The position numbers and the translations under genes were made by a program. This document shows positions 17,930 to 49,989 of a stretch of DNA of 64,000 bases, piece after piece; the first letter of the stretch is position 1; the number at the start of each line of letters is the position of its first letter. This DNA is from Okeania sp. KiyG1. GTDB taxonomy: Bacteria; Cyanobacteriota; Cyanobacteriia; Cyanobacteriales; Microcoleaceae. The stretch spans positions 124,001 to 188,000 of the forward strand of contig NZ_BLZO01000187.1 in assembly GCF_014132355.1 (NCBI RefSeq), in the 5' to 3' direction. A model generated the notes under the pieces. It saw only the letters and a program-made list of their open reading frames with translations, was not told where the DNA came from and did not search any database.

Positions 17930-18294
17930 AGAATTAACTAGCTATCAGCTACTAGCAGTCAGCGCGGATAGTTCAAATAACGCGCTACATCTAAAAGCTT
18001 GGGTTGAAATTCCCCTTCTAATATCAAATCCTTTGACTACGGTTCCCGAGAAATCGGAGTAATATAATTCCGTCGATCTTTATAAAATGTGTAGGGGCAT
18101 ACAGTGTGTAAGGGCGAATGGCCATTCGCCCCTACAGCTTTTAATAATTAATAATTACCTCTCCTTGAAAACGGATAGGATTGACCAAGAGAAGAAAAAA
18201 AATCCTTTTAACCAATCCTCTTACCCTTATAAGAAGGGGTAATTCTAAATTCTTGAATTCTAAATTCTAAATTCTAAATTCTAAATTCTTGAAT
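17930..18294. other. Spacer upstream of the glycan cluster
   Basis: No gene was seen. It contains a copy of the GTAGGGGCGAATGG palindrome (18108-18135) preceded by a truncated half-copy (18091-18098), then AATTAATAATT units. TTCTAAA tandem repeats run at 18241-18290, right up to the ATG at 18295. Any promoter for the long downstream cluster must lie in or before this repeat. Confidence 0.6.
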
Positions 18295-20097
18295 ATGGTT
18301 CAAACTAATTTCAAAACTGCTAATCAATTGTTACGGGAGGGCAAGCTCGATGATGCTGTAGCTGCTTACCGTGAGGCGATCGCTCTTAATCCTGGTTTTT
18401 CCTATGGTCATCATAATTTGGGGGAGGCTTTAGTTAAGGTGGGGCGGATAGAAGAGGCGATCGCTGCTTTTCGTCAGGCTGTGGCCATAAATCCTCAAGC
18501 TTCCTGGTCTCTCTACAAGTTAGGAGTTTTGTTACGGGGTGAAGGTCAATTTCAGGAGGCTGTGGGTTATTTTCGTCGGGCAGTGGAGCAGAAGACCGAT
18601 GTGCCGGAGTTTTATCTTGGTTTGGGAGCGGTGTTGCTGAAGTTGGGGCAATGGTCGGAGGCAGAGCAGTGTCTTGACAAAGTGGTAAATATGTTGTATC
18701 CAAATGTGGGTAAGTTCCATGGAACGTCCCTACAGACAGAAGCTTATTATTATTTGGGGGCGGCTAAGTCTGGGCAGGAGCAATGGTCTGAGGCGCTGGA
18801 GTTTTATCGTCGGAGTTGGGAGATGAGTCCCGGTGGGGTTGATTGTTGTTTGGGTTTGGCTGAGGCTTTGGGTAAGTTGGGGCAATGGTCGGAGGCGGTG
18901 GAATTTTATCGTCAGGCGGTGGTTTTGTCTGGGGAGTCTGGTGAGGTTTTGTTTGGTTTGGGTCAGGCTTTGGGGCAGTTGGGTAGATGGGAAGAGGCTG
19001 TTGTTGAGTATGGGCGAGCGATTAGTTTGGGTTTTGCTGGCGCTGAGGTGAGGCATCATTTGGGGTATGCTTTGGGGCAGTTGGGTAGATGGGAGGAGGC
19101 TGTTGTTGAGTATCGGTTGGTGGTGGAGGTTAATCCTAAGTCTGCTGTGGTTAGGCATCAGTTGGGGTATGGGTTGATGCAGTTGGGTAGGTGGCGGGAG
19201 GCGGAAGTTGAGTTGCGGAAGGCGGTGGAGTTGCATCCTGGGTCTGCTGTGGTTTGGCAGCAGTTGGGGGACGTTTTGCGGGAGTTGGGGAAGAAGGATG
19301 AGGCGGTTGAGGTTTATCAGAGGGCGATCGCTCAGAACCAAAATTCTTATCAACTTTACCACAATTTGGGAAAAGCCCTCGAGGAGTTGGGGCGTTTTGA
19401 TGAAGCCATTGAGTCTTATCAAGGTGCGCTCAAACTTCAACCGGAGGCGACTGAAACTGTTCTACAACTGAATAGAATCTTGCAACCGGCGGTAAAGTTT
19501 GAGGATGCTGAAAACCTATACCCGAATCTTAAAAATAAGAAGATTATTGTTTACACCTGTAACTTTGGTAATTATGAGTCTATCAAAGAGCCACTAGCTG
19601 TAGACCCTAGAGTTGAATATATTCTGTTTACAGATAACACACATATTAAGTCAGAAATCTGGAATGTTATTCACATTAACGAATTAGCAGAAAATCCGAG
19701 GCGTGCTTCGAGGTTAGCAAAAATTTTACCTCATAAATACTTACCTACACATGACATTAGTGTCTATATAGATTCGAGTTTTACACTCAAAGAAAGTGAT
19801 GTTTATAAAATGGTTAATCAGTGCATGGAAGAAAATGATATTGCACTATATAAACATAGCGAAAGAAACTGCGTTTACGATGAAATTGATTTTTGTGAGC
19901 AGTCAGAACTTAGAAATGTAGATTCGGAAATCTGCTCAAAGGTGCGGTTAAAATATGAATCTATTAACTATCCCCAAAATAATGGTTTGTTTGAAAACGG
20001 ATTTATTTTTAGAAAAATACTTCAAAAATTCAAGATCTTAATGAGTTATGGTGGGATGAGTATTTATCTGGAGCAGAAAGAGATCAGTTTAGTTTAA
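18295..20097 (+). CDS. TPR protein with C-terminal DUF616 glycosyltransferase-like domain
   Basis: About eleven TPR units fill residues 1-400 (typical DEAIESYQGALKLQP, with HIP1 sites encoding the EAIA parts). A DUF616 domain (TOD1/MUCI70-like glycosyltransferase family) starts at about 420: KIIVYTCNFGNYESIKEPL, YILFTDN, RRASRLAKILPH, ISVYIDSSFTL. The TPR half is G-rich on the coding strand, while the DUF616 half is AT-rich like the genes after it, so the fusion looks recent. The frame breaks in the A5 run at 20013-20017. Adding one A continues into NELWWDEYLSGAERDQ, which matches the second DUF616 domain downstream (GELWWDYMETYHAYRDQ). ATG 18295 is preferred over TTG 18289. Confidence 0.85.
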   Translation: MVQTNFKTANQLLREGKLDDAVAAYREAIALNPGFSYGHHNLGEALVKVGRIEEAIAAFRQAVAINPQASWSLYKLGVLLRGEGQFQEAVGYFRRAVEQKTDVPEFYLGLGAVLLKLGQWSEAEQCLDKVVNMLYPNVGKFHGTSLQTEAYYYLGAAKSGQEQWSEALEFYRRSWEMSPGGVDCCLGLAEALGKLGQWSEAVEFYRQAVVLSGESGEVLFGLGQALGQLGRWEEAVVEYGRAISLGFAGAEVRHHLGYALGQLGRWEEAVVEYRLVVEVNPKSAVVRHQLGYGLMQLGRWREAEVELRKAVELHPGSAVVWQQLGDVLRELGKKDEAVEVYQRAIAQNQNSYQLYHNLGKALEELGRFDEAIESYQGALKLQPEATETVLQLNRILQPAVKFEDAENLYPNLKNKKIIVYTCNFGNYESIKEPLAVDPRVEYILFTDNTHIKSEIWNVIHINELAENPRRASRLAKILPHKYLPTHDISVYIDSSFTLKESDVYKMVNQCMEENDIALYKHSERNCVYDEIDFCEQSELRNVDSEICSKVRLKYESINYPQNNGLFENGFIFRKILQKFKILMSYGGMSIYLEQKEISLV

Positions 20098-20318
20098 TGT
20101 ATTGCTTGTACGTTTTAAATATTCAACCAAATTCCATTAAAATTGGTAGACAAATGCGAAAAAATCCATTTGTGAAATGGACAAAACACCAATATAAGGA
20201 TTACAAGGATTACATTGACACCAGTGAGTTTTATATTGTATACATGGACAAATTTCACAACTGGGGAACAACTAGATTGAGAGGAGAGCAAGTATATGAA
20301 CGATTAAAAAATATTTAA
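20097..20318 (+). CDS. C-terminal DUF616 fragment separated by a frameshift
   Basis: The frame continues the DUF616 domain of the preceding gene after a one-base break at 20013-20017. Its YCLYVLNIQPNSIKIGRQMRKN aligns with the same place in the next DUF616 protein (SYVLFKTELNISCVHREVRN). The ATG here is internal and has no ribosome site. At the other end, one extra A in the A6 run at 20306-20311 would join it directly to the next frame (RLKKYLNLQMIPYSKAV). All three frames may be one gene. Confidence 0.7.
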   Translation: MYCLYVLNIQPNSIKIGRQMRKNPFVKWTKHQYKDYKDYIDTSEFYIVYMDKFHNWGTTRLRGEQVYERLKNI

Positions 20319-20326
20319 ACTTACAA

Positions 20327-22432
20327 ATGATTCCCTACTCGAAAGCAGTCAATCTTTACAACAAACATATGCTTTTTTTAAAGATTTATGACTATAACGT
20401 GCTTATTCCAATAATTAAAAATAATAATAAGGTCTATCTTGATATGGTAGACTGTAACTCAAAATATATAAATCCTAAAATACAAATTTTTAAAGGCGTA
20501 GAGTTCGGAATTTTTACAACAAAAAGTTCCCTAGATTTTTATAAAAACCTATTCAAACATCCTGACAAGTGCAAAACAATTTATCATCATTGGGATATTA
20601 CTCTAGAAAAGTTTAAACCTAACGATACGAATACAGTAAAAATAGGTTATTTTGGAGTCCAGCCAAAGGGTTTTCTCTATGGGGAAATTCCAGGAATAGA
20701 TTTTTATGAGGTAACTTCAACGAATTTTGATGATACTCTTAAAAGTAAAATGAGTAACTATAATGTTCAATATGTTGTGAGGCCACTTGAAGAACAAAAA
20801 GAGTTTCCTGCTTTAACTAAGATATCAACGGCAAGTGTTTTTTCTGCTCCTGTGATTTCTTCAAAAACTAATGAAATGGAGTTACTCGGTGAGGATTACC
20901 CTTATTATATTGATGATTTGAATCTGGAGTCAGTTTTAAAAACGATTGAGAAAGTCAAAACTACTTTCCAAAAAGAAGAGTGGAATCGTGCTGTTGATAT
21001 TATGAAGTCTATTAGGGATCAAACATCTATAAATTCCATCGTGGAAGACTATCTTAATGTGTTTCAAAATTTAGAAGAAATTCCCTCTTTTTATACATAC
21101 GCAAAAAGCAAAAAAAGAGCTATATACACAGCCAATATAGGGGGTTACGATCGACCTATTCCTCTCGAACCTGAGCTAACAGAAGGTTGGGATGCTTATT
21201 ATTTTTCAGACAACCCTAATTTTGAATGTCCGGGTTGGAAACATATTTATGTTGACACTGAAAAAATTAGACTAGACTCTAAAGTTGCCTATGCAAGAGA
21301 GATTAAAGCTCGTCCCCATCTACACTTGCCTAATTATGATGTTACACTTTGGATTGATAGTAACTTCACTGTCAAAAGAAAGCTAAATGATTTTTTAAAA
21401 AATCTTCCAGATGAGGATTTTATTGTGACAAAGCATCCTAAAAGAAGCTGTATCTATGAAGAGTTACAACAACCCAGAGTAATTGTTAAAACTGGACAAT
21501 CTATTCTTGATGAAGTTAAAGCCAAGCTTGAAAGACAGTGCTTTCCCAAGAATTTTGGTCTTCAGGAAACCAACTTTCTTTTGAGAAAGAACAGGGAGTC
21601 ATGCAGAATAATAGGGGAGCTTTGGTGGGATTATATGGAGACATATCATGCTTATAGAGATCAGCTTTGGCTGTCTTATGTGCTATTTAAAACAGAGTTA
21701 AATATCAGTTGTGTTCACAGAGAAGTTAGAAATCGATATTTTAATATTAAGGAACATCCTAACCTAGTTACAACAACAAAAAAATATGCTTTAGACTTTG
21801 CGCCTAATAATCAAGCCTATGTGGAAATTCCGCATCAGAAAGGCTTATCATTAACAGGTGACTTAACAGTTGAATTTTGGCTAAATCTCAAGGAATGGCC
21901 TACGACATGGACTAATATTATATCAAAGCAGCTAGACGACCATAGAAATGAGTTCTGTCTCCGGATAAAAAGTACCAAAGTAGGTCAGTTTTATTACACT
22001 TCTGAAAATGAACTTGTGGTGTTAAATTGGAATCCTAAAAATGTTCTAAAATTAAGCTCCTGGACACACATTGCCTGTGTACGAAAAATAGGTGAGTTCC
22101 TAAAAATTTACTTTAATGGGTCACTAATGGCCGAAATCGACACTCCGCAAAAGAGAAAAGCAACAGAGACAGAAGTTCCTATTTTGTTGATGACCAATGC
22201 GCAACATAGTCAGTTTGCTAATGCTCAAATGTGCGATCTTCGTATTTGGCGCAAAGCTTTGAGCAATGAGGAGATTGTAGCTCAAATGAATGAGAATCTT
22301 CGAGGGAATGAAGAGGGTTTAATTGGGTATTGGAAATTTGATTCAGGTGAAGGAAATCAGCTAATTGATATTAACTTATGTTATGACGGCCTCATTCACA
22401 AAGCAACCTGGAAAAACCTTGGTTTTATTTAA
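20327..22432 (+). CDS. Glycosyltransferase-like + DUF616 + LamG multidomain protein
   Basis: The 701 residues fall into three blocks. About 1-250 resembles a GT-B-type glycosyltransferase (KIGYFGVQPKGFLYGEIPG, SVFSAPVISSKTNEMELLGEDYPYY), a moderate-confidence call. About 265-480 is a DUF616 domain (RAIYTANIGGYDRPIPLEP, YYFSDNP, VTLWIDSNFTVKRK, TKHPKRSCIYEE). About 485-700 is a LamG/concanavalin-like lectin domain (YVEIPHQKGLSLTGDLTVEF, WTHIACVRKIGEFLKIYFNG, LRIWRKALSNEEI, LIGYWKFDSGEG). It likely modifies and binds glycans. The ATG lacks a clear ribosome site, which fits the view that it continues from the fragment upstream. The stop at 22430 is followed in the same frame by the next gene. 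Confidence 0.82.
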   Translation: MIPYSKAVNLYNKHMLFLKIYDYNVLIPIIKNNNKVYLDMVDCNSKYINPKIQIFKGVEFGIFTTKSSLDFYKNLFKHPDKCKTIYHHWDITLEKFKPNDTNTVKIGYFGVQPKGFLYGEIPGIDFYEVTSTNFDDTLKSKMSNYNVQYVVRPLEEQKEFPALTKISTASVFSAPVISSKTNEMELLGEDYPYYIDDLNLESVLKTIEKVKTTFQKEEWNRAVDIMKSIRDQTSINSIVEDYLNVFQNLEEIPSFYTYAKSKKRAIYTANIGGYDRPIPLEPELTEGWDAYYFSDNPNFECPGWKHIYVDTEKIRLDSKVAYAREIKARPHLHLPNYDVTLWIDSNFTVKRKLNDFLKNLPDEDFIVTKHPKRSCIYEELQQPRVIVKTGQSILDEVKAKLERQCFPKNFGLQETNFLLRKNRESCRIIGELWWDYMETYHAYRDQLWLSYVLFKTELNISCVHREVRNRYFNIKEHPNLVTTTKKYALDFAPNNQAYVEIPHQKGLSLTGDLTVEFWLNLKEWPTTWTNIISKQLDDHRNEFCLRIKSTKVGQFYYTSENELVVLNWNPKNVLKLSSWTHIACVRKIGEFLKIYFNGSLMAEIDTPQKRKATETEVPILLMTNAQHSQFANAQMCDLRIWRKALSNEEIVAQMNENLRGNEEGLIGYWKFDSGEGNQLIDINLCYDGLIHKATWKNLGFI

Positions 22433-22453
22433 TTAATAATTCAAAAAACAAGC

Positions 22454-23098
22454 ATGAATATCCTAAATTTTCAACAAGAATCTAATCTCAACCGAGCATT
22501 AAACAAACCAACGGCCCAGAGTTCAGTTTATCAACCCGAAAAATATGGTTACAATCCTCATGGTGCTTGTAACGGTCAAAAAACAGGAGAATTTGGCTTT
22601 TGTACTCTGAAAGAAAATAAGCCTTGGTGGCAAATTGACTTACAAGGAAACTATGAGATTTCTGAGATAGAGATTTATAATCGCATAGATTCTTGTCAGG
22701 AACGCGCCTCAACATTAAATGTATTGTTGTCTCAAGATGCGCTAAATTGGGAATTATGTTACTCAAATCCTCAAGAAAATATATTTGGTGGCATTGATGG
22801 GAAACCTCTTATAGTAAATGGTAAAAACAGATTAGCACGTTATATACGATTGCAGTTACGAGATAATGAGTATTTTCATCTGGATGAAGTGGAAATCTAT
22901 GGTATTCCTTTCTCAGCAAAAGGTTCAAACTTCAAATTTAATCAAGATGAAACTACTCTGTCTGCTAACTTTTATGGTGACTTACTAGATGACTTAGAAT
23001 TAGAGAAGCGGTTTGCAGTACAAACTGGATTAAGTTTTTTATCAATGAAGAGTTTAGTTGGCAACCCAAAATCTAAATTATCTAAAAAAACAAATTAA
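22454..23098 (+). CDS. Discoidin (F5/8 type C) domain protein, module 1
   Basis: Residues 10-155 form an F5/8 type C carbohydrate-binding domain: NRALNKPTAQSSVY, WWQIDLQGNYEISEIEIYNR, ASTLNVLLSQDALNWEL, LARYIRLQLRDNEYFHLDEVEIYG. A linker with QDETTLSANFY follows, a motif found after every copy of this domain in the cluster. There is no signal peptide. The frame stops just after an A7 run (23084-23090). One extra A would read on into the fucosyltransferase-like frame that follows (SKKNKLKVLKLLRF). It is near-identical to the domain at 24073-24686. Confidence 0.88.
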   Translation: MNILNFQQESNLNRALNKPTAQSSVYQPEKYGYNPHGACNGQKTGEFGFCTLKENKPWWQIDLQGNYEISEIEIYNRIDSCQERASTLNVLLSQDALNWELCYSNPQENIFGGIDGKPLIVNGKNRLARYIRLQLRDNEYFHLDEVEIYGIPFSAKGSNFKFNQDETTLSANFYGDLLDDLELEKRFAVQTGLSFLSMKSLVGNPKSKLSKKTN

Positions 23099-23101
23099 AG
23101 G

Positions 23102-23378
23102 TATTAAAGTTACTTCGGTTTGTAGATTTTGACCAACTGAACAAAGAGCGCCTGATCTGTGACATTACGGCAATAAGTATTGAAAGAGCCGGAAGATTTG
23201 GTAATAGTATACGGCAATTGTCTCATGCATACCATATTGCTAAATCAATAGGAGTAGATAGAATATATTTACCACAATTTTGGTATATAAAAGAAGGTGA
23301 ATTAACTACACCATCAGGAATACTAATCGTCAATCTCAATCAGCCTAATTTTTTAGGGAAAAAATAGTATTAGAAGGG
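23102..23378 (+). pseudogene. 5' part of a fucosyltransferase-like gene, frameshifted
   Basis: This stretch has no ATG-started frame, but its translation (LLRFVDFDQLNKERLICDITAISIE) is almost identical to the N-terminus of the gene at 24689. Two things separate it from the rest of its domain. The start codon is missing, and a T6 run at 23349-23354 stands where the second copy has T7 (24937-24943). Restoring one T joins it to the frame at 23379. Confidence 0.85.
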
Positions 23379-24686
23379 ATGTTTTTTAATCACAAAACTT
23401 TGGCTCCGCTGTCTAAAACCACTCCAGAACATTATCTAAACATGATTGATTTAATAGGGGCAGGAGCATTTAATTTTCAACACTCTGAACCATTAGGCGA
23501 GCAAGATTTGGTAATACACATACGTTCTGGCGACATTTTCAAAAATAACGTACACTTAGGTTATGGTCAACCACCGTTTTCCTTTTATGCAAAGATAATA
23601 GAACTTCAGAGCTGGCATTCAATTTCGTTGGTTTTTGAAGACAAATCAAATCCCATCATCGATCCACTAATTGATTTTTGCAGGCGACGTTGCTCCCAGG
23701 TGCAGGAAATTAGTGGCGATCTAAAGTCAGATATAGAGTATTTGCTCAGAGCCAGAAAATTAGTAGTTAGTAATGGAACTTTTTGTCCTGCCATTGCATT
23801 AATTTCCAAGAGTTTAAATACAGTTTATTCTTTTGAAAATGAGTTTTCAATCAAGTATAACCCAAACATTTCCCAGATCGTAAGAGTTGTCGATCGACAG
23901 GGTGTTTATAAATCAGAAATCTTAAGCAGCAACTGGCAAAACACTGAATTGCAGCGAAAACTTATGCTTGAGTATCCAACAAATGTGTTGGATTTTGATT
24001 CAGATAACGACCAGCAAATCAAACCTACTAAAAAAACAAACATAGGCAGCATAAACATCGATCAAAATGCCAATACTAACTTAGCACTAAACAAACCAAC
24101 GGTTCAAAGTTCGATTTACGGAGCTGAAAAACATGGTTACGACCCTCATGGTGCGTGTAATGGCAAGAAAACAAGAGCATTTGGCTTTTGTACTATGAAA
24201 GAAGATCGACCTTGGTGGCAGATTGACTTGCAACGAAACTATGAGATTTATGAGATCAAGATTTATAATCGCATGGATTCTTGTCAGGAACGTGCCTCGA
24301 CATTAAATGTGTTGTTGTCTCAAGATGCGCTAAATTGGGAATTATGTTACTCAAATCCTCAAGATAACCTATTTGGTGGGATTGATGGGAAACCTCTTAT
24401 AGTAAATGGTCAAAATCGGTTGGCACGTTATATACGATTGCAGTTACGAGATAATGAGTATTTTCATCTGGATGAAGTGGAAATATATGGTATTCCTTTC
24501 TCAGCAAAAGGTTCAAACTTCAAATTTAATCAAGATGAAACTACCCTGTCTGCTAACTTTTATGGTGACTTACTAGACAACTTAGAATTAGAGAAGCAGT
24601 TTGCAATACAAACTGGATTGAGTTTTTCATCAATGAAAAGCTTAGTTTGCAACCCAAAATCTAAATTATCTAAAAAAACAATTTAG
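23379..24686 (+). CDS. Fucosyltransferase-like domain fused to discoidin domain, module 2
   Basis: Residues 1-180 are the C-terminal part of a GT11/O-fucosyltransferase-like enzyme with the donor-binding motif DLVIHIRSGDIF and the conserved VVSNGTFCPAIALIS. A linker rich in N, Q and K (residues 180-230) leads to an F5/8 type C domain (about 230-390), then the QDETTLSANFY linker. The fusion of enzyme and discoidin domain in one frame here is direct evidence that the modules belong to one polypeptide. The frame stops after an A7 run at 24672-24678. One extra A joins it to the next enzyme (SKKNNLDMLKLLRF). It is about 95 percent or more identical by eye to the next 1.59 kb unit. Confidence 0.85.
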   Translation: MFFNHKTLAPLSKTTPEHYLNMIDLIGAGAFNFQHSEPLGEQDLVIHIRSGDIFKNNVHLGYGQPPFSFYAKIIELQSWHSISLVFEDKSNPIIDPLIDFCRRRCSQVQEISGDLKSDIEYLLRARKLVVSNGTFCPAIALISKSLNTVYSFENEFSIKYNPNISQIVRVVDRQGVYKSEILSSNWQNTELQRKLMLEYPTNVLDFDSDNDQQIKPTKKTNIGSINIDQNANTNLALNKPTVQSSIYGAEKHGYDPHGACNGKKTRAFGFCTMKEDRPWWQIDLQRNYEIYEIKIYNRMDSCQERASTLNVLLSQDALNWELCYSNPQDNLFGGIDGKPLIVNGQNRLARYIRLQLRDNEYFHLDEVEIYGIPFSAKGSNFKFNQDETTLSANFYGDLLDNLELEKQFAIQTGLSFSSMKSLVCNPKSKLSKKTI

Positions 24687-24688
24687 AT

Positions 24689-25507
24689 ATGTTAAAATTA
24701 CTTCGGTTTGTAAACCTTGACCAATTGAACAAAGAACACCTTATACATGATATTACGGCAATAAGTATTGAAAGATCCGGAAGATTTGGTAATAGTATAC
24801 GGCAATTGTCTCATGCATACCATATTGCTAAATCAATAGGAGTAGATAGAATATATTTACCACAATTTTGGTATATAAAAGAAGGTGAATTAACTACACC
24901 ATCAGGAATACTAATCTTCAATCTCAATCAGCCTAATTTTTTTAGGGAAAAAATAGTATTAGAAGGGGTGTTTTGTGATTACAAAACTTTGGCTCCGCTG
25001 TCTAAAACCACTCCAGAACATTATCTAAACATGATTGATTTAATAGGGGCAGGAGCATTTAATTTTCAACACTCTGAACCATTAGGCGAGCAAGATTTAG
25101 TAATACACATACGTTCTGGCGACATTTTCAAAAATAACGTACACTTAGGTTATGGTCAACCACCGTTTTCCTTTTATGCAAAGATAATAGAACTTCAGAG
25201 CTGGCATTCAATTTCGTTGGTTTTTGAAGACAAATCAAATCCCATCATCGATCCACTAATTGATTTTTGCAGGCAACGTTGCTCCCAGGTACAGGAAATT
25301 AGTAGCGATCTAAAGTCAGATATAGAGTATTTGCTTAAAGCAAGAAAATTAGTAGTTAGTAATGGAACTTTTTGTCCTGCCATTGCATTAATTTCAAAGA
25401 GTTTAAATACAGTTTATTCTTTTGAAAATGAGTTTTCAATCAAGTATAACCCAAACATTTCCCAGATCGTAAGAGTTGTCGATCGACAGGGTGTTTATAA
25501 ATCATAA
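24689..25507 (+). CDS. Fucosyltransferase-like glycosyltransferase, intact domain copy
   Basis: The complete 272-residue domain begins MLKLLRFVNLDQLNKEH. It shows ISIERSGRFGNSIRQLSHA (a nucleotide-sugar GT-like N-terminus), DLVIHIRSGDIF (the HxRxGD motif of GT11, GT23 and O-fucosyltransferases) and VVSNGTFCPAIALIS. The start has no ribosome site and lies two bases after the previous stop. It ends at TAA 25505-25507, where the duplicate copy has GAA at 23916, a single G-to-T nonsense change. Reading on would reach the linker and the third discoidin domain. Exact sugar specificity is not deducible. Confidence 0.82.
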   Translation: MLKLLRFVNLDQLNKEHLIHDITAISIERSGRFGNSIRQLSHAYHIAKSIGVDRIYLPQFWYIKEGELTTPSGILIFNLNQPNFFREKIVLEGVFCDYKTLAPLSKTTPEHYLNMIDLIGAGAFNFQHSEPLGEQDLVIHIRSGDIFKNNVHLGYGQPPFSFYAKIIELQSWHSISLVFEDKSNPIIDPLIDFCRQRCSQVQEISSDLKSDIEYLLKARKLVVSNGTFCPAIALISKSLNTVYSFENEFSIKYNPNISQIVRVVDRQGVYKS

Positions 25508-25537
25508 ATCTTAAGCAGCAACTGGCAAAACACTGAA

Positions 25538-26284
25538 TTGCAGCGAAAACTTATGCTTGAGTATCCAACAAATGTGTTGGATTTTGATTCAGATAACGAC
25601 CACCAAATCAAACCTACTAAAAAAACAAACATAGGCAACATGAACATCAATCAAAATACTAATACTAACTTAGCGTTAAACAAACCAACGGCTCAAAGTT
25701 CGGTTTATCAACCTGAAAAACATGGTTACGACCCTCATGGTGCGTGTAATGGCAAGAAAACAGGATCGTTCGGCTTTTGTACTACGAAAGAAGATCGACC
25801 TTGGTGGCAGATTGACTTGCAACGAACCTGCCATATTTCTGAGGTCAAGATTTATAACCGCATAGATTGTTGTCAGGAACGTGCCTCGACATTAAATGTG
25901 TTGTTGTCTCAAGATGCGCTAAATTGGGAATTATGTTACTCAAATCCTCAAGAAAATATATTTGGCAGTATTGATGGGAAACCTCTCACAGTAAATGTGC
26001 AACATCAGGTCGCACGGTTTGTGCGGTTACAATTGCGAGAAAACGATTACCTTCATCTCAATCAAGTAGAAATCTATGGCATTCCTGTCGAAACTGATGG
26101 TTCAGAGCCAGACCATAATCAGGATGAAGCAACTCTATCTGCTAATTTTTATAGTGGTAGTGAAGTAAGTTTACTTCGCTTTTCCCTAGACCCCTCAAAT
26201 AATTTTGTTAATTATAGAGGCCAATTGCGTCAAGACAAATGGTGCGTTATGATGACCAAAGGCAAGCAAAGGGCGTTTTTCTAG
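25538..26284 (+). CDS. Discoidin domain, module 3, frame-broken from FkbM domain
   Basis: The F5/8 type C domain (about residues 45-200: NLALNKPTAQSSVY, WWQIDLQRTCHISEVKIYNR, VARFVRLQLRENDYLHLNQ) is followed by the QDEATLSANFY linker. It then begins an FkbM-type N-terminus (NFVNYRGQLRQDKW). The frame stops at 26284 because of a one-base break near the G3 run at 26271-26273. Adding a G continues into GVFLEIGSTDG of the next frame. The ATG is internal; the frame really continues from the GT upstream across the nonsense codon at 25505. Confidence 0.82.
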   Translation: MQRKLMLEYPTNVLDFDSDNDHQIKPTKKTNIGNMNINQNTNTNLALNKPTAQSSVYQPEKHGYDPHGACNGKKTGSFGFCTTKEDRPWWQIDLQRTCHISEVKIYNRIDCCQERASTLNVLLSQDALNWELCYSNPQENIFGSIDGKPLTVNVQHQVARFVRLQLRENDYLHLNQVEIYGIPVETDGSEPDHNQDEATLSANFYSGSEVSLLRFSLDPSNNFVNYRGQLRQDKWCVMMTKGKQRAFF

Positions 26285-26952
26285 AAATAGGCTCTACGGA
26301 TGGAGTGGGACTCAATAATACTTTTTGCTTAGAAAAAAACTTTTCTTGGTCTGGTATTTGTGTAGAGCCTAATCCAGATTTTTTTCAAAGACTTTGTGTA
26401 AACCGCACTGCTATAACTCTTCCGTATGCTTTTTATAAGCAATCAGGTCAAATAGTAGAATTTGTACCTCATGCTACTTTGGGAACAATTTCAGATTTTT
26501 TATCAACTGATAGTCACGCTTCAGCCAGAGAAAATTTTATTTCTCAAAAGGGCACTATTAAGGTTATAACAGCATGTCCAGAAGATATTTTAAATCTTTA
26601 CAAATTTCCTGAAAATTTTGACTTTCTAAGCTTAGATGTAGAAGGTGCAGAGCTTGATGTTTTGGAATCTTTCAATTTATCTAAATACCGTCCTGCTTTG
26701 GCTTGCATTGAACATAACCATGTTGCTGATAAGCGATTAGCTATTTTTCAACTTCTTTCTAGCCACGGCTACCAGCGTATACAGTGCAGGTTTGATGACT
26801 GGTACTATAACTTGGATATTCTTCAAACTTTGAATCCTGAAATTCCTCTCAGTCACTATCAACAAGTATTAGAGTATTTTTGCACCTATCACAACTGTAA
26901 ATTCGTTGATAAAGTGAGTCTTGATACTGGTAAATTAGCAAAAAAAAAGTAA
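26239..26952 (+). CDS. FkbM-family methyltransferase domain, module 3
   Basis: This is a SAM-dependent methyltransferase of the FkbM type, whose members O-methylate sugars and other small molecules. Motif I is VFLEIGSTDGVGLNNT, acidic motif II is WSGICVEPNP, and the later motif is FDFLSLDVEGAELDVLESF. Residues 1-11 before GVFLEIG are out-of-frame readings of the true N-terminus, which lies in the preceding frame. The end is KLAKKK plus TAA inside an A9 run at 26940-26948. One more A would fuse it through a Ser/Asn/Pro-rich linker to the fourth discoidin domain. Confidence 0.85.
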   Translation: MVRYDDQRQAKGVFLEIGSTDGVGLNNTFCLEKNFSWSGICVEPNPDFFQRLCVNRTAITLPYAFYKQSGQIVEFVPHATLGTISDFLSTDSHASARENFISQKGTIKVITACPEDILNLYKFPENFDFLSLDVEGAELDVLESFNLSKYRPALACIEHNHVADKRLAIFQLLSSHGYQRIQCRFDDWYYNLDILQTLNPEIPLSHYQQVLEYFCTYHNCKFVDKVSLDTGKLAKKK

Positions 26953-27089
26953 ATGATGCAGTAATAATAAATGAAATTAATCCTGACTCAGCTTCACCTC
27001 CAGCCAGCTCAAATTCTACTTTTTCAGATATTAGCAAAGATGGCATCAATCTTAACTCAAACCCCAATATTACTAAGATAAACTTAGCC

Positions 27090-28247
27090 TTGAATAAACC
27101 AACAGCTCAAAGTTCCATTTATCAACCCGATAAATATGGTTACGATCCTCAAGGAGGCTGTAACGGAGAGAAAACAAAAGCATTTAGCTTTTGTACTATG
27201 AAAGAAAATCAACCTTGGTGGCAAATTGACTTGCAAGGAACCTATCACATTTCTGAGATCGAGATTTATAATCGTATGGATTGTTGCCAGGAACGTGCCT
27301 CGACGTTAAATGTATTTTTGTCTCAAGATGCCCTCAATTGGGAATTATGTTACTCAAATCCTCAAGAAAATATATTTGGTGGCACTAATGGGAAATCTCT
27401 TATAGTAGATGGTCAAAACCGACTAGCACGTTATGTGAAATTACAATTGCGGGAAAATGAATATCTTCATCTGGATGAAGTGGAAATCTATGGTATTCCT
27501 TTAAAAGCTAATGGCTCGGATTTCAAATGTAGTCAAGATGAGGAGACTCTATCTTCCAACTTTTATGCTCAAGCCACCAGTTTGTCATTCTGTCCATCTC
27601 CCGAACAAATTAAGCAAATTGCCTTAAAATCATCCCAGGGCATTATTCATGTCGGAGCCCATAAAGGTCAAGAGGCTGAATTTTATGCAACTCATAACAA
27701 GTCAGTAATATGGATTGAAGCTTTACCTAAAGTGTTTCAATTCCTACAAAAAAAGATTGCTAAGTATCCAAGCCAAAAAGCAATTAATGCCTTGGTAACA
27801 GATACTGATGGTAAAGAGTATAAGTTTAATATTTCTAATAATTCTGTTTCTTCCTCTTTATTTGAATTTGGTGATGCTAAAGGTAAGTTATATCCTAGGT
27901 TAACAATGGTCAATTCTGTATATTTAATTGGTAAAACACTCGGCACAATTTATGGCGAATTTAATATAGACGCGAGTGAGTTTGATTTTCTATTGTTGGA
28001 TGTTCAAGGTGCTGAATTAATGGTACTAAAAGGTGCTGAATCTGTTTTGCATAATTTCAAGTATATTCTGACAGAAGTCAGTACAGTCGATATTTATAAA
28101 GACGGAGTATTATGGGATGAGTTAAAAGCTTTTTTAAACAATAAAGGCTTTAAAGAGGTTTTATCTGGTGTTCCAAGGAGGCATTGCGACGTATTATTTG
28201 TGAATGAAACAAAAGAATCAGACAATTTTTATCAGCAATATTCCTAA
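27090..28247 (+). CDS. Discoidin domain fused to FkbM methyltransferase, module 4
   Basis: The first 145 residues are an F5/8 type C domain (NKPTAQSSIY, WWQIDLQGTYHISEIEIYNR, LARYVKLQLRENEYLHLDEVEIYG). The hinge QDEETLSSNFYA and an FkbM methyltransferase (about 170-385) follow. The methyltransferase has GIIHVGAHKGQEAEFYA, VIWIEALP and FDFLLLDVQGAELMVLKGAE. No ATG opens the frame. It is open upstream to 26949 through a linker (DSASPPASSNSTFSD), so it probably continues from the FkbM frame before it via the A9 run. This copy shows a discoidin-FkbM pair in one uninterrupted frame. Confidence 0.87.
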   Translation: MNKPTAQSSIYQPDKYGYDPQGGCNGEKTKAFSFCTMKENQPWWQIDLQGTYHISEIEIYNRMDCCQERASTLNVFLSQDALNWELCYSNPQENIFGGTNGKSLIVDGQNRLARYVKLQLRENEYLHLDEVEIYGIPLKANGSDFKCSQDEETLSSNFYAQATSLSFCPSPEQIKQIALKSSQGIIHVGAHKGQEAEFYATHNKSVIWIEALPKVFQFLQKKIAKYPSQKAINALVTDTDGKEYKFNISNNSVSSSLFEFGDAKGKLYPRLTMVNSVYLIGKTLGTIYGEFNIDASEFDFLLLDVQGAELMVLKGAESVLHNFKYILTEVSTVDIYKDGVLWDELKAFLNNKGFKEVLSGVPRRHCDVLFVNETKESDNFYQQYS

Positions 28248-28396
28248 ATTTGTAGGTAGCAAACACATTCACCAAAACGATATCGCCTATTCAGTCAGTA
28301 AAGCCAAAACTAGGTAAAAAATCAACAGTCTACTTTCTCCTACATCCTGAGAATAATTTTGTAAGATGTTTATTAAGTTTAAAGTAATAAGTAGGT

Positions 28397-29977
28397 ATGA
28401 ACGGCAATAATCTTCAACATACTAATGTTAACTTAGCATTAAACAAACCAACGGCTCAAAGTTCTATTTATAGTCCAGAAAAATATGGTTACGATCCTCA
28501 TGGTGCATGTAATGGCAAGAAAAATGGAAAATTTGGTTTTTCCACTTGTAAAGAAAATCAGCCTTGGTGGCAGATTGACTTGCAAGGAATGTATCAGCTT
28601 TCTGAGATTAAAATTTATAATCGCCTTGATTTTGAAAAACGTGCCTCGGCCTTGAATATCTTATTGTCCCAAGATGCAATGAATTGGGAGTTATGTTATT
28701 CCAATCCTCAAGAGAACCTATTTGGTGGCATTGATGGGAAACCTCTTATAGTAGATGGTCAAAACCGGTTAGCACGTTATGTGAAATTACAATTGCGGGA
28801 AAATGAGCATTTTCATTTAGATGAAGTCGAAATCTATGGCATTCCCTTCAGAGCAGATGCTTCAGAGTTGACACCTAATCAAGATGAAGCGACTCTAGCT
28901 GCAAACTTTTATAGTCAAGCTAGTCTACCCTCCTCTCCTCCTATTATTAAAATGATTATCTCGCGACGGATTGATGGAATAGGCACAAGATTAATGTCTG
29001 TTTTGTCAGCTAGATATGCGTGCCAATACTTTGGTTGCAATCTGTATATAACTTGGCCGAGCATTAAGAGCAGGTATTACTCTTCAAATATCCTTCAAGC
29101 TGACAGTATTGCAGAGATTTTTGATGGGGGAAAAGTATTCAAAGATATTGATGCTCATATACTAAGTGAAGAAGAATTTTCCAAATTAAATACAAGATCG
29201 TTGAGTAACCTTAAAAATGGGTTTAAGCGGAAAGGATACTTTTTTATTTTAAATCAAAATGACATTGAAAATTTTTCCCAGTGTGAATTCCTGACTTACG
29301 ATGAACCTTGGGCAATTCTCCCCTATGGCATTCAATATAAGCAAGTCTATAAAAAAGTCAAAGAATACTGGAAACAATTAAACTGGCATGAGTCTATTGT
29401 TAATAGCATTAAAAATTTTGAAAAGCAAATACATGGTAAGCCTTATGTCGTAGTACACATAAGGCGAGGAGATATTATTGATAGACTTCTGTATGATAAC
29501 ATTAAACTTTTAGATCGGGATATGTCGGCGATATTTGGACGGTTTCTGCCAATTGCAACTGCTGTTAGATTAATCCTAGATTGTGGTTTTAAAGATGTTG
29601 TTCTGTGTTCTGAGTGCCAGGAATCAAGTCAAATAATTGTAAAACGTGTTAATCAATACAGTAATGAATTTAATTTTTATATAACATCTGAGCTTACGCA
29701 ATCTCTTAGTGAAACTCAGGTAGCAACTTTCGATCTTATTATCATGTCTGCTGCTATCAAGATACTTACATCATCCAGCAGTAGTTTTTCAAAGTGTGCA
29801 GAATTTGCTGGCAATGCTCATAGATTCAGCAATGACACAGACTGGGAGAATGTTGCCCAGGAATTAATTGCATACCTTGATAGTAATGATAATGAAATGA
29901 CGGATGAGAGAAAAAGTTTAGTTTATCTTAATATAAGTAAAAAATTCAAAACAAAGAGCTTGCTGATTATTATGTAA
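28397..29977 (+). CDS. Discoidin domain fused to O-fucosyltransferase-like glycosyltransferase, module 5
   Basis: The start is ATG 28397. An F5/8 type C domain spans about residues 8-155, then the hinge QDEATLAANFYSQA. A different fucosyltransferase-like domain (about 180-480) has RRIDGIGTRLMSVLSARYA and VVVHIRRGDIIDR (HxRxGD). It is not a close copy of the module 1 and 2 enzyme. A 150-bp spacer separates it from module 4. Near the end, one extra A in the A6 run at 29939-29944 would replace the odd tail FKTKSLLIIM. The tail would then be IQNKELADYYVSLSKQF...FGR, ending at 30027, which looks more natural. Confidence 0.86.
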   Translation: MNGNNLQHTNVNLALNKPTAQSSIYSPEKYGYDPHGACNGKKNGKFGFSTCKENQPWWQIDLQGMYQLSEIKIYNRLDFEKRASALNILLSQDAMNWELCYSNPQENLFGGIDGKPLIVDGQNRLARYVKLQLRENEHFHLDEVEIYGIPFRADASELTPNQDEATLAANFYSQASLPSSPPIIKMIISRRIDGIGTRLMSVLSARYACQYFGCNLYITWPSIKSRYYSSNILQADSIAEIFDGGKVFKDIDAHILSEEEFSKLNTRSLSNLKNGFKRKGYFFILNQNDIENFSQCEFLTYDEPWAILPYGIQYKQVYKKVKEYWKQLNWHESIVNSIKNFEKQIHGKPYVVVHIRRGDIIDRLLYDNIKLLDRDMSAIFGRFLPIATAVRLILDCGFKDVVLCSECQESSQIIVKRVNQYSNEFNFYITSELTQSLSETQVATFDLIIMSAAIKILTSSSSSFSKCAEFAGNAHRFSNDTDWENVAQELIAYLDSNDNEMTDERKSLVYLNISKKFKTKSLLIIM

Positions 29978-30162
29978 GTCTTTCTAAACAATTTTCATCT
30001 GATACCTTTGCGAGGTTTGGTAGATGAGTTTGGCAAAGTTGAGTAGAGCTTACCTATCTGCCCATTTTCACTTTCAATTGTGAGACACTGAGAAACCTTG
30101 ATTGCGGTAAGCCTCAAGAGCTAATTTACTTTGCTACCTTGTATTTAAGTTTTCTGTAACTG

Positions 30163-31362
30163 TTATTTTCCAACAGCTAGATGCTTTTGGACAAAATTAG
30201 CAAACTGATAGTAATTTTTATGAGTTATGTTATCCATTAAAGTTAAATAATTTTTGGCTTGTATTGGCAATTTATGATAAAGTTCTTGAAACTCTCTACT
30301 TTTTGTAATTTCTACAAATTTTTCCAAGAAAGAAGGACTTATCCCCCATCCAGGTCTAACCCCTTCTCCACGATCTTTGAATATACCAAAAGGGTTTCTA
30401 TGAGGGCTAATATGAATACCGTGAACTGGACGGTAAGAAGCACTTTCAGGAACCATTATGCCTTTTCTGCTCATTATAGTGTACAATAACTGCTCGTCGT
30501 TCATTGTGAGAACTGGCAAATCAGAAACGTCTGGTAAAGGATACTGAACATCCCAACGTGCAAAGTGTAGTCCTGTCAAGTGTGGTATTTCGTTGGAAAG
30601 CGTATGAGATCTAATTACATTGCTAAAGGGTAAATTGTTACATTTAATGTTCTTAATATGTTGTTTTCCTATATTTTCTTCTAAAATCAAAATGTCTATA
30701 TCCCCTATATAAACATAATCGCACTTGTACTTGACCGGAGTTTCAATGAATCGAACCGAGTGTGGCAAAGTGTTGGTGAAATTGTTAGTGCTTCTTAAAT
30801 GAAAACGATTGGGAAAAATTTCGTTTAAAAACTTAATACAATCCCTGTTTTCCTCTATAAATCTATCGCTATCTTCTAAGCAAATTTCAACCCACGCATT
30901 ATGATTGTGGTAAAGAGTAAAGAAAATATATAGGGGGGCAAAATGTTCGTAAGGTTGGTTAGCTGCTGTGAAAAATAAAACGGAGTATGGTTCTTTATTA
31001 ATTGGATCTGCTGTTCTAAAATTCCGTGGCTTTTTCTTATCGCCTCCTAATAAATCTGGACTAATTTGATAAGCTTTCTGGTAATAATCCATAGCTTGGT
31101 CTAGCTGTTTTTTCTCAGCTAGCACCTCTCCTAGATTGTAGTAAAACCAGGCAGAGTTTGGGTTAATCTCTATCGCTCGATGATACGCCTCAACTGCAGC
31201 ATCAGCTTTTCCTTGGCTAGCTAAAGCTTCTCCTAAATAAAAGTAAGCCCAACTAAATTGAGGATTAATTTCTATTGCCTTTCTGTAGCAAGCGATCGCC
31301 TCATCCAACTTCGCAGCTCGCTTCAACTGATTTGCCTGTTTTAAAAGTCTATCACCATTCAT
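30163..31362 (-). CDS. TPR + GT-A-like glycosyltransferase
   Basis: Three TPR units (LDEAIACYRKAIEINPQ and relatives) occupy about residues 5-110. A glycosyltransferase-like domain of about 270 residues follows, with PYSVLFFTAAN, a DxD-type motif (CDYVYIGDIDILIL), LTGLHFARWDVQYP and HISPHRNPFGIF. The layout fits GT8-like or related retaining enzymes acting on surface glycans. ATG 31362 has a GGAGGA box 7 bases upstream. ATG 31413 (AAGGAG at 6 bases) is an equally good alternative, and an open frame extends to 31503. It runs convergent to the discoidin cluster and directly follows the TPR-FkbM gene on the same strand. Confidence 0.82.
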   Translation of the reverse strand: MNGDRLLKQANQLKRAAKLDEAIACYRKAIEINPQFSWAYFYLGEALASQGKADAAVEAYHRAIEINPNSAWFYYNLGEVLAEKKQLDQAMDYYQKAYQISPDLLGGDKKKPRNFRTADPINKEPYSVLFFTAANQPYEHFAPLYIFFTLYHNHNAWVEICLEDSDRFIEENRDCIKFLNEIFPNRFHLRSTNNFTNTLPHSVRFIETPVKYKCDYVYIGDIDILILEENIGKQHIKNIKCNNLPFSNVIRSHTLSNEIPHLTGLHFARWDVQYPLPDVSDLPVLTMNDEQLLYTIMSRKGIMVPESASYRPVHGIHISPHRNPFGIFKDRGEGVRPGWGISPSFLEKFVEITKSREFQELYHKLPIQAKNYLTLMDNITHKNYYQFANFVQKHLAVGK

Positions 31363-31499
31363 ATTTCTTTCCTCCGTGTTAGTGTAGTTATTTGCTATTC
31401 TATCAGAGTTCATAAAATACTCCTTAAATCGAGCTAAATTACCATAATTTGGTAGTTGCCACTTATGTTGACACCACAAACATACTGCAATCTTCCGCC

Positions 31500-32582
31500 T
31501 CAAGCAGAACCTAATAGCTTTCTATTTACCTGAATTGATTTTAAAACATTTTCTCTTATCGTCTTGTAATCGCTTGCTTTTCCATGAATACCCATATCTT
31601 GACTGTCCCACTCTTCAATTTCAATCAAATTTTGAAGTTGGGTGGTTAATCTATCATGCCTTTTCTTAGGAATATTCACTTTCCGCCAATGAAACTCGCA
31701 GTATAGTTTATCAAGGTAACGAACAGTTCTTTCTTGCAGCATCTTTTCAAGGATGTCATATTCTGCACCTTCTACGTCCAACTTTAAGATAATATTAGAA
31801 TAGATTTGGGATACTTGAGAAATAAAGGCAGATAAATCAATACAATCAATAGTCAGTACAGGACAATCTGCATTACTGACCTTTCCATAAAAATCAATTT
31901 TTTTGTCTTTCAATAACGAACTACCATCACCATCTAGAGGATCGACCGTAAATTCAATTTGGCCATCGTATGTGAAAACTGCTTTTTTGATTAACTTTGT
32001 TGGGAGTTCTTTATAGTAATCCCATAGATCGGGGTTAGGTTCAAAAGTAATACAATCATAGTTTAAGTGGGTCATTAAAAACTTGATAGCAGAACATCCG
32101 TCATATCCCCCACAATCAATAAACAAGCATCGTTCTTTTCTTGAAGCTTTATTATTTTGAATGCTATATTTTTCGTCAATAAGACTTAGATAGTTTTTCC
32201 CAAGCAACCTATCTCTTTCTGCCAATACTTGACTTAAGCTTCTCTGTAGTTTCCTAATATTTGGTTGAGTCTCAACAGCCTTTTGTAAATACTCAACAGC
32301 AACTTCTAAATCTCCTTTTTGTGTAAAAACGCTCCCCAAGCTATACAAATATAAAGCTGAGTTAGGGTTGATTTTTAAACTTTCTAAATAGCAAGCGATC
32401 GCCTCATCCAACTTTCCCTGTTTAACAAAAGCATCACCTAAATTAGAATATAACCAAGCAAAATTCGGATTAATTTCAATAGCCTGATGATAAAGAGCGA
32501 TCGCCTCATCCAATCTCCCCGCTCTCTTCAACTGATTAGCCTGCTTCAAAAACTGGCCAGCACTCGTACCTTCATTACCCAT
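31500..32582 (-). CDS. TPR + FkbM methyltransferase
   Basis: Three or four TPR units (LDEAIALYHQAIEINPN, LDEAIACYLESLKINPN, LEVAVEYLQKAVETQPN) lead to an FkbM-type methyltransferase from about residue 155. Its motifs are RCLFIDCGGYDGCSA, YDCITFEPNP and NIILKLDVEGAEYDILEKM, with REFHWRK-like YCEFHWRKVN near the end. The start is placed at the second Met (MGNEGTSAG), because the preceding residues look like spacer. The 5' end and upstream region are duplicated as a fragment at 33397-33535. It forms a probable two-gene unit with the TPR-glycosyltransferase downstream. Confidence 0.83.
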   Translation of the reverse strand: MGNEGTSAGQFLKQANQLKRAGRLDEAIALYHQAIEINPNFAWLYSNLGDAFVKQGKLDEAIACYLESLKINPNSALYLYSLGSVFTQKGDLEVAVEYLQKAVETQPNIRKLQRSLSQVLAERDRLLGKNYLSLIDEKYSIQNNKASRKERCLFIDCGGYDGCSAIKFLMTHLNYDCITFEPNPDLWDYYKELPTKLIKKAVFTYDGQIEFTVDPLDGDGSSLLKDKKIDFYGKVSNADCPVLTIDCIDLSAFISQVSQIYSNIILKLDVEGAEYDILEKMLQERTVRYLDKLYCEFHWRKVNIPKKRHDRLTTQLQNLIEIEEWDSQDMGIHGKASDYKTIRENVLKSIQVNRKLLGSA

Positions 32583-32774
32583 AACAACCCAACCAATAAA
32601 TCTACTCAAAAACATCATTCTATCCCAAAAATTACCGTTTCATCTCAGTCAAAGAAACTTTCTTATTTCAGGAATAGAGAATAGGGCATAGTCTTTAACT
32701 TCCATTATTTTTAATTTACTAAAATTTTAAAATGCTATATGATAGAAAGTTAATAGAAAAAATTAGCTCTATAC

Positions 32775-32945
32775 ATGACTAAAAAAGAGGAAAATCGTCA
32801 CTCTGCCACCAATAAAGAACAATGTAAAAAAATGGCAAAGTTGAACGGGTGGAAACTAATTAGAATAGAAGAAACAAAAGACAAAATACTCAAAGTCGAT
32901 TGTATTTTTGAAGGTGAACAAACAACTTTCACGGAGGAAAAATAA
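32775..32945 (+). CDS. Small hypothetical protein (56 aa)
   Basis: The ATG-TAA frame encodes a very charged protein. It has an N-terminal polar stretch (MTKKEENRHSATNKEQ), then KLNGWKLIRIEETKDKILKVDCIFEGEQTTF, which looks like a small beta-rich domain. A GGAGGA box for the next gene overlaps its last codons, and the next ATG starts two bases after its stop. The two are therefore almost certainly one operon. No family is recognised. Confidence 0.65.
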   Translation: MTKKEENRHSATNKEQCKKMAKLNGWKLIRIEETKDKILKVDCIFEGEQTTFTEEK

Positions 32946-32947
32946 AA

Positions 32948-33334
32948 ATGAGTGAAACATGGATAATCTTTATTGCTGAACCAGACCAACCCGGATGGGA
33001 AAATCGCAAACTACCAATGGGTGGCTTAACAGACATTTTAGACGAACAATGGGATTACACCAGCACAGGAGCAAAGCCTAAAATAGGCGATCGCCTCAGA
33101 CAATTTTTGCAAGTAGAAGAATTCATCGACCCCAAATTCCCTGGAAGTTCTACCCACGTTAGAGAAGGAGACTGGGTAATAAGTAGAGTAGAAGAGTACC
33201 TTCCTGGTGGGGACGATAGCTCGAAAAAAGCAATAATCCTGTGTTATTGTCGCCTCGATCCCATCATTTCTCCCTTGGAACCCTTATCAAGGGCAAGCCA
33301 GGAGATAGAGAGTGTGGGAGGTTTAGGCAGATAA
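32948..33334 (+). CDS. Conserved hypothetical protein (128 aa)
   Basis: This soluble protein has no membrane segment or signal peptide. Visible stretches are TWIIFIAEPDQPGWENRKLPMGG, WDYTSTGAKPKIGDRLRQFL and THVREGDWVISRVEEYLPG. A strong ribosome site (GGAGGAAAAATAAAAATG) decides the start. It is coupled to the 56-residue gene upstream. The pair is bracketed by the true and duplicated 5' ends of the TPR-FkbM gene. The Ser/Glu/Gly-rich tail may be variable. Function is unknown. Confidence 0.75.
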   Translation: MSETWIIFIAEPDQPGWENRKLPMGGLTDILDEQWDYTSTGAKPKIGDRLRQFLQVEEFIDPKFPGSSTHVREGDWVISRVEEYLPGGDDSSKKAIILCYCRLDPIISPLEPLSRASQEIESVGGLGR

Positions 33335-33396
33335 AGATCCTAAATCAATATTTTGCAGCTACAAACTAAAGAGCAATGTAGCTGCCGAACTTGCTC

Positions 33397-33535
33397 CGCC
33401 CTCTTCAACTGATTAGCCTGCTTCAACAACTGACCAGCACTCATACCCTCATTACCCATAACAACCCAACCATAAATCTACTCAAAAATATTATTCTACC
33501 CCAAAAATTCCCGTTTCATCTCAGCCAAAGAAACT
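33397..33535. repeat. Duplicated fragment of the TPR-FkbM gene 5' end
   Basis: The sequence matches about 32510-32650 in the same orientation. It starts at CTCTTCAACTGATTAGCCTG, passes ACCAGCACTC, CATTACCCATAACAACCC and CCCGTTTCATCTCAG, and stops at AAAGAAACT. On the minus strand it still encodes NQLKRA-type residues but leads nowhere. It is a dead partial copy. Confidence 0.85.
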
Positions 33536-34292: not shown

Positions 34293-34322
34293 TATTCTGC
34301 TATTGATAATAACTATTCTCAA

Positions 34323-49955: not shown

Positions 49956-49989
49956 AGTCTCACGTCCGGTTTTGGAGAGCAGCGGTTCT

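Follow-up and report, generated by a model that had tools for sequence, protein, structure and literature searches.

The 64,000-nt window analysed here, from the genome of Okeania sp. KiyG1, carries between positions 22454 and 29977 an array in which five lectin modules alternate with enzymes resembling glycosyltransferases and methyltransferases. An earlier note on this DNA had described five F5/8 type C (discoidin) domains alternating with enzymes, and a genome-wide profile search confirms them: five PF00754 domains (E 1.9e-14 to 2.3e-11) are found between 22454 and 28945, and a threshold of E<=0.001 brought up no others in the 11 Mb genome. Directly behind each of the five lectins stands a hinge, [NS]QDE-TL[SA][AS]NFY, whose constancy the note had rightly pointed out, followed by the enzyme, the order being two GT11-like enzymes with an HxRxGD motif, two FkbM methyltransferases and another HxRxGD domain. 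All modules are encoded on the + strand. Lectin module 1 with its hinge (22454..23098; PF00754 E 4.9e-15) belongs to an open reading frame (ORF) that stops just short of GT11-like enzyme 1 (23086..24007), which is in frame with lectin module 2 and its hinge (24060..24686, in the ORF 23379-24686; 86% amino acid identity to module 1); GT11-like enzyme 2 follows (24689..25507). The ORF of lectin module 3 and its hinge (25643..26284; PF00754 E 5.7e-15) continues out of frame into FkbM methyltransferase 1 (26218..26952), while lectin module 4, hinge and FkbM methyltransferase 2 form a single open frame (26934..28247; PF00754 E 2.2e-13), and lectin module 5, hinge and the HxRxGD glycosyltransferase-like domain form an open frame of 526 aa with its own ATG (28397..29977; PF00754 E 1e-11). 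Read by eye, without a predictor, the N-termini show no sign of a signal peptide, as the note had stated.

The enzyme assignments are of unequal firmness. The FkbM domains behind the third and fourth lectins, which had been predicted, are firmly recognized by PF05050 (E 2.9e-17 and 1.4e-15; 63.8 and 58.3 bits against a curated cut-off of 22.7). For the two fucosyltransferase-like enzymes and the second type of HxRxGD enzyme, the motifs claimed earlier are present. The window copy of the GT11-like enzyme has no match to PF01531 (GT11) at E<=0.1, and two of eight aligned homologues touch this family (best E 0.019); all eight keep the H, R, G and D of HxRxGD without exception. The HxRxGD domain of unit 5 matches PF10250 below the cut-off (E 0.0045), its enzyme part being 63% identical over 328 aa to a protein of a relative, genome G014. 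Against the PDB, the GT11-like enzymes found no relatives at E<=1, and the credible matches of unit 5 are confined to its lectin part. NCBIfam, applied to the window proteins, named the FkbM and tetratricopeptide repeat (TPR) parts only; in addition, the Laminin_G_3 ORF described below matched TafC at a score under the cut-off. GDP-mannose 4,6-dehydratase, which is required for GDP-fucose, yet is not specific to it, was found in six of six genomes searched, this one included.

A feature absent from the earlier note emerged on comparing the loci of congeners, namely conserved flanks with variable content between them. On the left, a conserved 207-aa membrane-protein-like ORF (17306..17929, +; 92-95% DNA identity over 598-824 bp in the loci of the five congeners, G001-G005) precedes the left anchor (18243..19321, +; 90-94% DNA identity in congeners), which is the constant TPR-coding 5' part (the open frame as far as aa 350) of a TPR - TOD1_MUCI70 (DUF616) glycosyltransferase-like gene (18289..20315, +; PF04765 E 1.4e-10). 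Next to it lies a 701-aa ORF combining a TOD1_MUCI70-like part with a lectin-like Laminin_G_3 domain (20327..22432, +; PF13385 E 1.1e-22). The note had placed TPR-DUF616 and DUF616-LamG genes upstream of the array; both are present, with the qualifications that the second DUF616 match is below the cut-off (PF04765 E 7e-4) and that the first gene is frame-broken between 20000 and 20097, in the context of an A-run. On the right, a TPR gene with an unassigned C-terminal domain (30163..31503, -; TPR families only at E<=1e-5) is followed by a TPR-FkbM gene (31500..32618, -; PF05050 E 5.4e-7), whose first ~73 aa are part of the right anchor (32398..33300; matched piecewise by G002, G004 and G005 at 88-95% DNA identity). 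By eye, a DxD-like motif is seen in the C-terminal domain of the former (30163-31503, -), which is possibly another glycosyltransferase.

When positions 16500-35500 were used as a DNA query against the five congeners, the matches listed covered both flanks, mostly at 88-95% identity, and none fell between ~19326 and 32287. The left homology ends at 19302-19326, that is within 24 bp, in six of six copies from the five congeners, and the right homology begins at 32398-32401, within 3 bp, in three of four copies (G002, G004, G005); the right-anchor match of G001 sits on a separate contig. Both junctions lie inside TPR codons, just behind the TPR motif LGD.....G..D. Each of the six genomes of the genus has the left anchor, as do two of another genus, and it was not found in G014 or Tychonema. 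G001 carries two left TPR anchors (G001:C328, G001:C644) with different C-terminal parts. Six genomes have both anchors on one contig, and the interval between them measures 13.1 kb here (13,076 bp), 30.0 in G005, 8.9 in G002, 9.8 in G004, 11.3 in G003 and 6.9 in G022, which belongs to another genus; in G017 the left anchor and pieces of the right flank share a contig, its right edge is not placeable, and it was left out of the pair count. Two of the 15 pairs share interior DNA on the kilobase scale: G002 and G003 are 91% identical across at least 4.0 kb, and G004 and G022 have one stretch of 3.8 kb at 75% and another of 2.1 kb at 85%. The other 13 pairs share at most 88 bp, or TPR stretches up to ~250 bp at 72% once the right end of the window's interval is counted. 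This all-against-all comparison covered 11,887 bp of the window's interval; the remaining 1.2 kb were compared with G001-G005 by the DNA search, in which their matches of at least 120 bp are ends of TPR matches only (31099-31344, and G003 from 32287).

Thus, conserved flanks and non-homologous interiors define a hypervariable locus of glycan enzymes whose nearly fixed junctions lie within TPR codons and which occurs in filamentous cyanobacteria related to Tychonema and Trichodesmium. The scanned ORF stretches of G002, G004 and G005 matched families in 15 of 20 cases, among which are glycosyltransferases, sulfotransferases, methyltransferases and nucleotide-sugar enzymes (UDP-glucose dehydrogenase, epimerases); the five stretches without a family comprise three right-anchor C-terminal parts and two others. 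Behind the left anchor come TOD1_MUCI70 here, GT4 in G005 and GT2 in G004, while in G002 the anchor is followed by just the short end of a 417-aa ORF. As the interior DNA is wholly different between most of the genomes compared, the interior genes and the catalytic end of the left-anchor gene change from genome to genome. ORFs resembling IS200/IS605 TnpB or REP-type transposases were seen by eye within the variable interval of several relatives or next to it (L179:14004-15095, L216/L217, L183, L182:2632-3213) and may help to move cassettes.

In the strain under study the array is damaged and not an intact giant enzyme, unit 5 being open. Frame changes near 23095, 23350, 24683, 26230 and 26940, together with a TAA at 25505, amount to six breaks inside 22454-28247. 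An alignment of units 1 and 2 over 1597 bases shows 93.1% identity, the later enzyme part being nearly the same in both, and frame and copy comparison places two of the breaks (~23095, ~23350) in GT11-like enzyme 1. Both units shift frame at the lectin/enzyme joint (~23095 and ~24683), where G014 reads through and is 5 nt shorter. Other lesions are private: T6 in copy 1 against T7 in copy 2 (~23350), and TAA in copy 2 against GAA in copy 1 (25505). Because of the latter, GT11-like copy 2 terminates before a conserved C-terminal tail with a W..N/Q stretch, which alignment by eye recovers in six more distant homologues and in window copy 1, and which G014 has in another frame. Further along, the frame breaks between 26218 and 26284 at the lectin 3/FkbM 1 joint and at an A9 run near 26940 at the FkbM 1/lectin 4 joint. 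At the latter, an overlapping start-stop coupling was considered and dropped, the codon there being GTA. Lectin 4 has no ATG ahead of it, lectin 2 has ATA at the position of lectin 3's ATG and, lesions aside, there is no stop between the enzyme and the next lectin at three of three joints in units 1-4; since stops and starts are missing at the joints, units 1-4 (22454 to 28247) probably once formed one chain. Selective constraint on the array appears to have persisted until recently, because dN/dS values are low (0.18-0.37): 0.18 for lectin 1 versus lectin 2, 0.30 and 0.37 (16 and 12 changes) for the two enzyme parts and, against G014, 0.18 for the unit-5 enzyme and 0.19 for GT11-like copy 2, the last two being rough at a dS of 1.3-1.4.

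These lesions bear on how the array is to be read. The earlier note gave one layout for the whole segment, with a cytoplasmic glycan-modifying scaffold as an option; the six breaks within 22454-28247 speak against a single readable layout and an intact large scaffold protein in this strain. That the five units still cooperate in this strain as one intact cytoplasmic glycan-modifying assembly, or mega-enzyme, is improbable: some joints here are in frame, relatives do have open multi-enzyme frames, and genome G062 has an open frame of 1765 aa (GT2, GT11-like, TPR), but two breaks interrupt GT11-like copy 1, and a tail kept by its homologues is missing from copy 2. It is more improbable still that the chain is intact and the breaks are errors of assembly. 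In its favour, several of the frame breaks are single-base and lie at short runs; the TAA, however, is a base substitution, and a 5-nt difference common to both GT11-like copies underlies two of the breaks. Furthermore, the ABC-transporter PF00005 domains listed for this genome, which has 71 matches in total, have no internal stops and frame lengths like those of congeners, so that a genome-wide sequence error is unlikely. A comparably slim chance attaches to the breaks being functional, with A/T runs switching or correcting the frame in phase-variable or recoded genes. The T6/T7 difference between the GT11-like copies and the A9 run at the FkbM 1/lectin 4 joint would suit this explanation, all five frame breaks in units 1-4 shift by the same step (two being copies of one event), and runs of at least 7 are slightly above expectation in 22454-28250 (9 versus 6.1, sd 2.5). 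Yet the whole array has no excess of such runs (12 versus 11.9 expected), a nonsense codon is among the lesions, and what both GT11-like copies have in common is a change of 5 nt relative to G014 and not of run length.

The lesions could also be those of ordinary pseudogenes, a tandem duplicate of a horizontally acquired gene rotting in a genome of low coding density with no special locus structure. The 93% identity of units 1 and 2, each with private lesions, is what this would give, and ORFs of at least 200 aa cover 32-51% of several stretches of this genome as against 80-92% of two G014 stretches away from the lectin genes. However, relatives have other glycan genes at this position, with long open frames and bounded by breakpoints that they share; decay alone does not predict such a pattern, and this explanation is considered unlikely.

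The discoidin label given to the lectins at first agrees with the F5/8C profile and proved too general. When a profile of 11 lectin modules was compared with the PDB, fucolectins ranked first (FBP32, 3cqo, E 9.9e-21; a Streptococcus fucolectin-related protein, 2j1r, 2.8e-17; 1k12, 2e-9), and the plain 'discoidin/galactose-binding' identity was accordingly replaced. According to the excerpt of PMC5712786, F-type lectins bind fucose through the triad His52-Arg79-Arg86, with a contiguous Cys pair at 82-83 that some members lack, and the motif is printed there as HX24RXDX4[R/K]. The spacing from the His position to Arg in the window lectins is x26, which is consistent with the residue numbers in the same excerpt. 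RxD is present in all five, with the next Arg at +7 in four and at +6 in one, and the Cys pair reads CC in modules 3 and 4, SC in modules 1 and 2, and neither in module 5. At the His position all five have Cys or Ser, so the window lectins are fucolectin-like domains with an altered site.

At E<=1e-20, lectin 3 as the query matched 8 genomes in a sample of 389 from the order, 7 in one of 62 from the family and 3 in one of 386 from the phylum (the samples overlap, and each count takes in this genome), with no match in any of the five congeners G001-G005. Modules with the hinge occur in this genome (G000), G014, G027 (Tychonema sp. LEGE 06208) and G032 (the metagenome-assembled genome, MAG, Trichodesmium MAG_R04), where other orders and partners uphold the earlier idea of lectin plus hinge as a constant cassette carrying different enzymes: TPR-lectin-GT, lectin-FucT and FkbM-lectin-DUF268 in G014, TPR-lectin-GT and lectin-DUF268 in Tychonema (where the end of the contig truncates the gene in the former and the lectin in the latter), and sulfotransferase-lectin-FkbM in the Trichodesmium MAG. 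Open enzyme-lectin-enzyme frames reach 923 aa in G014 and 695 aa in the Trichodesmium MAG; by eye, the former (L028:9181-11949, -; FkbM-lectin-DUF268) has a second discoidin-like stretch ahead of the lectin, with no Pfam match. Other fusion partners of the lectin class are a GT10 fucosyltransferase in the Trichodesmium MAG (PF00852 E 1.3e-15), one resembling NodZ/FUT8 in a Burkholderiales MAG (PF05830 E 6.3e-16) and a GT11-like enzyme in an Acetobacteraceae MAG; further partners across relatives are FkbM, sulfotransferase and DUF268, and lectin plus FkbM was seen by eye in Methylobacterium and Solirubrobacterales records. Many further lectin relatives are planctomycete-type proteins, five of which, inspected by eye, had no such enzyme. 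The 1765-aa frame of G062 (L154, G062:C53), of which 1209 aa were inspected, has its enzymes joined by TPRs and not by lectins, and a sulfotransferase-like end by eye.

The history of the modules was approached through a lectin tree, in which the lectins of the G014 GT and FucT genes are sisters (97/95), and the monophyly of FucT lectins (p-AU 5.2e-5) and of GT lectins (p-AU 0.011) is rejected by the approximately unbiased (AU) test. Permutation tests at a threshold of p<0.02, uncorrected for the 45 pairs, detected unusually long identical tracts in 10 of 45 lectin pairs at all sites and in 9 of 45 at third positions, and 14 of these 19 tracts join lectins within one genome. This pattern would best be explained by gene conversion among tandem lectins, the alternative being parallel re-use of the module.

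Taken together, the array is most likely (at a probability of roughly 60%) a decaying allele of a hypervariable module-exchange locus for surface-glycan enzymes, in which lectins would aim the enzymes at a fucose-like glycan. From the sequences we infer that the interior is exchanged through homologous recombination in the flanks and anchors, and that the product is a surface polysaccharide (of the sheath or envelope), which the locus would diversify, perhaps under phage or grazer pressure. The lectin modules may be homogenized via gene conversion between tandem copies and act as joints for adding enzymes. Lectin-GT11-lectin-GT11-lectin-FkbM-lectin-FkbM would once have been a single cytoplasmic protein, whose lectins held the fucose-like glycan for the addition of fucosyl, methyl or other groups, and in this allele constraint would have been lost recently. 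The fucose-like target is suggested mainly because three fucosyltransferase-like families join the fucolectin-like domain.

Several observations weigh against this reading. At the locus, the right match of G003 extends 111 bp further in, to 32287, at 78%; the interior shared by G004 and G022, having diverged about like the flanks, may simply be an old allele that both have kept; and the right-anchor C-terminal parts of G002, G004 and G005 have no Pfam match, so that exchange of catalytic ends is unsupported there. The former chain is nowhere seen intact, and lectin 3 carries its own ATG. Among the lectins, the fucose-contacting His is gone in five of five (Cys in four, Ser in one) and retained in three of three in G014; because of this loss the window lectins are classed as F-type-lectin-like and not as fucose-binding F-type lectins, and sugar binding by them is uncertain. 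In a loose-pattern survey of all loci with 98 distinct contexts, 82 have His and 13 have Cys, all 13 in cyanobacterial loci; two rows, including module 5, are shifted by a single residue and have Ser, and a further row does not represent a lectin. In the tree, the DUF268 lectins of G014 and Tychonema group together, that is by enzyme (61/72, unsupported), the clade of the window's five lectins lacks support (47/76), and the best tree separates the three G014 lectins, although a clade of these three is not rejected (p-AU 0.094). Finally, 5 of the 19 long tracts join lectins of different genomes, so that conserved blocks account for part of the tract signal.

A broader proposal, which is tentative and somewhat less probable than not, is that the locus is a general enzyme-exchange platform, where catalytic modules are swapped at fixed junctions and the decoration of surface glycans is re-tooled in one recombination event; as part of the same proposal, the TPR anchors at the edges and the inner lectin/hinge would be retained as recombination handles and as glycan/protein docking parts. 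Loci for capsule, O-antigen and other cell-surface polysaccharides, as well as the cell-surface genomic islands of cyanobacteria, have conserved flanks and different glycan genes inside, a plan shared by the present locus, in which, by contrast, both edges cut TPR-coding anchor genes and at least the catalytic end of the left anchor changes. As excerpted, polymorphic toxin systems (PMC3482391) likewise combine a constant N-terminal part, a sharp junction and a variable C-terminal catalytic module; here, the variable modules are glycan enzymes instead. No toxin domain was found among the scanned C-termini, which are glycan enzymes or unassigned, and immunity genes were not searched for. F-type lectin domains are known in bacteria including Cyanobacteria, mostly alongside other domains, e.g. 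glycoenzymes and methyltransferases (Bishnoi et al., via the excerpt of PMC5712786). The modules described here share with them the domain class by profile and this association; they differ from what the excerpt describes in being tandem, with a constant hinge, swapped enzymes, a hypervariable locus and loss of the key His. The Trichodesmium MAG_R04 arrays (L032, L033) also consist of tandem lectin-tagged GT10 and FkbM genes (two of eight genes scanned), but put the lectin last, in separate frames and without the QDE-TLSANFY hinge. There, five and three tandem enzyme-lectin genes, enzyme first, are seen (L032:1957-8335, L033:100-4103), adjoining a gene that resembles, by eye, the UDP-glucose dehydrogenase of the G005 allele.

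The earlier claim that no system with this layout had been described stands for the layout, as far as the literature searched goes, and is not supported for its parts. Lectin-enzyme fusions, among them those of F-type lectins with glycoenzymes or methyltransferases in the excerpt of PMC5712786, and variable surface loci are already known; no report of discoidin with FkbM (and glycosyltransferase), or of such a locus, was found in the literature searched, the latter judged mostly by titles and the beginnings of abstracts, and the same sources did not show constant modules combined with an exchange of catalytic ends at two scales. If the proposed exchange is real, surface sugars would be diversified through catalytic ends replaced on constant modules and not through whole operons, and a defined locus with known breakpoints would be available for watching exchange in large filamentous cyanobacteria. 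The joining of fucolectin-like modules to three different fucosyltransferase-like families also points to lectin-guided glycan synthesis in bacteria.

Elsewhere, a plasmid-borne origin was considered and dropped, with just two weak plasmid matches. Within 52007-57232 (-), the window contains two ORFs of the alpha-amylase family, at 53304-54863 and 55409-57232; their best Pfam matches span only small parts of the profiles, and they are possibly damaged too. The neighbouring ORF 52007-53329 (-) matched no family in the Pfam scan. At 48860-50915, a group II intron match (RF00029, 49877-49955) lies among short ORFs that are perhaps pieces of an intron-encoded protein.

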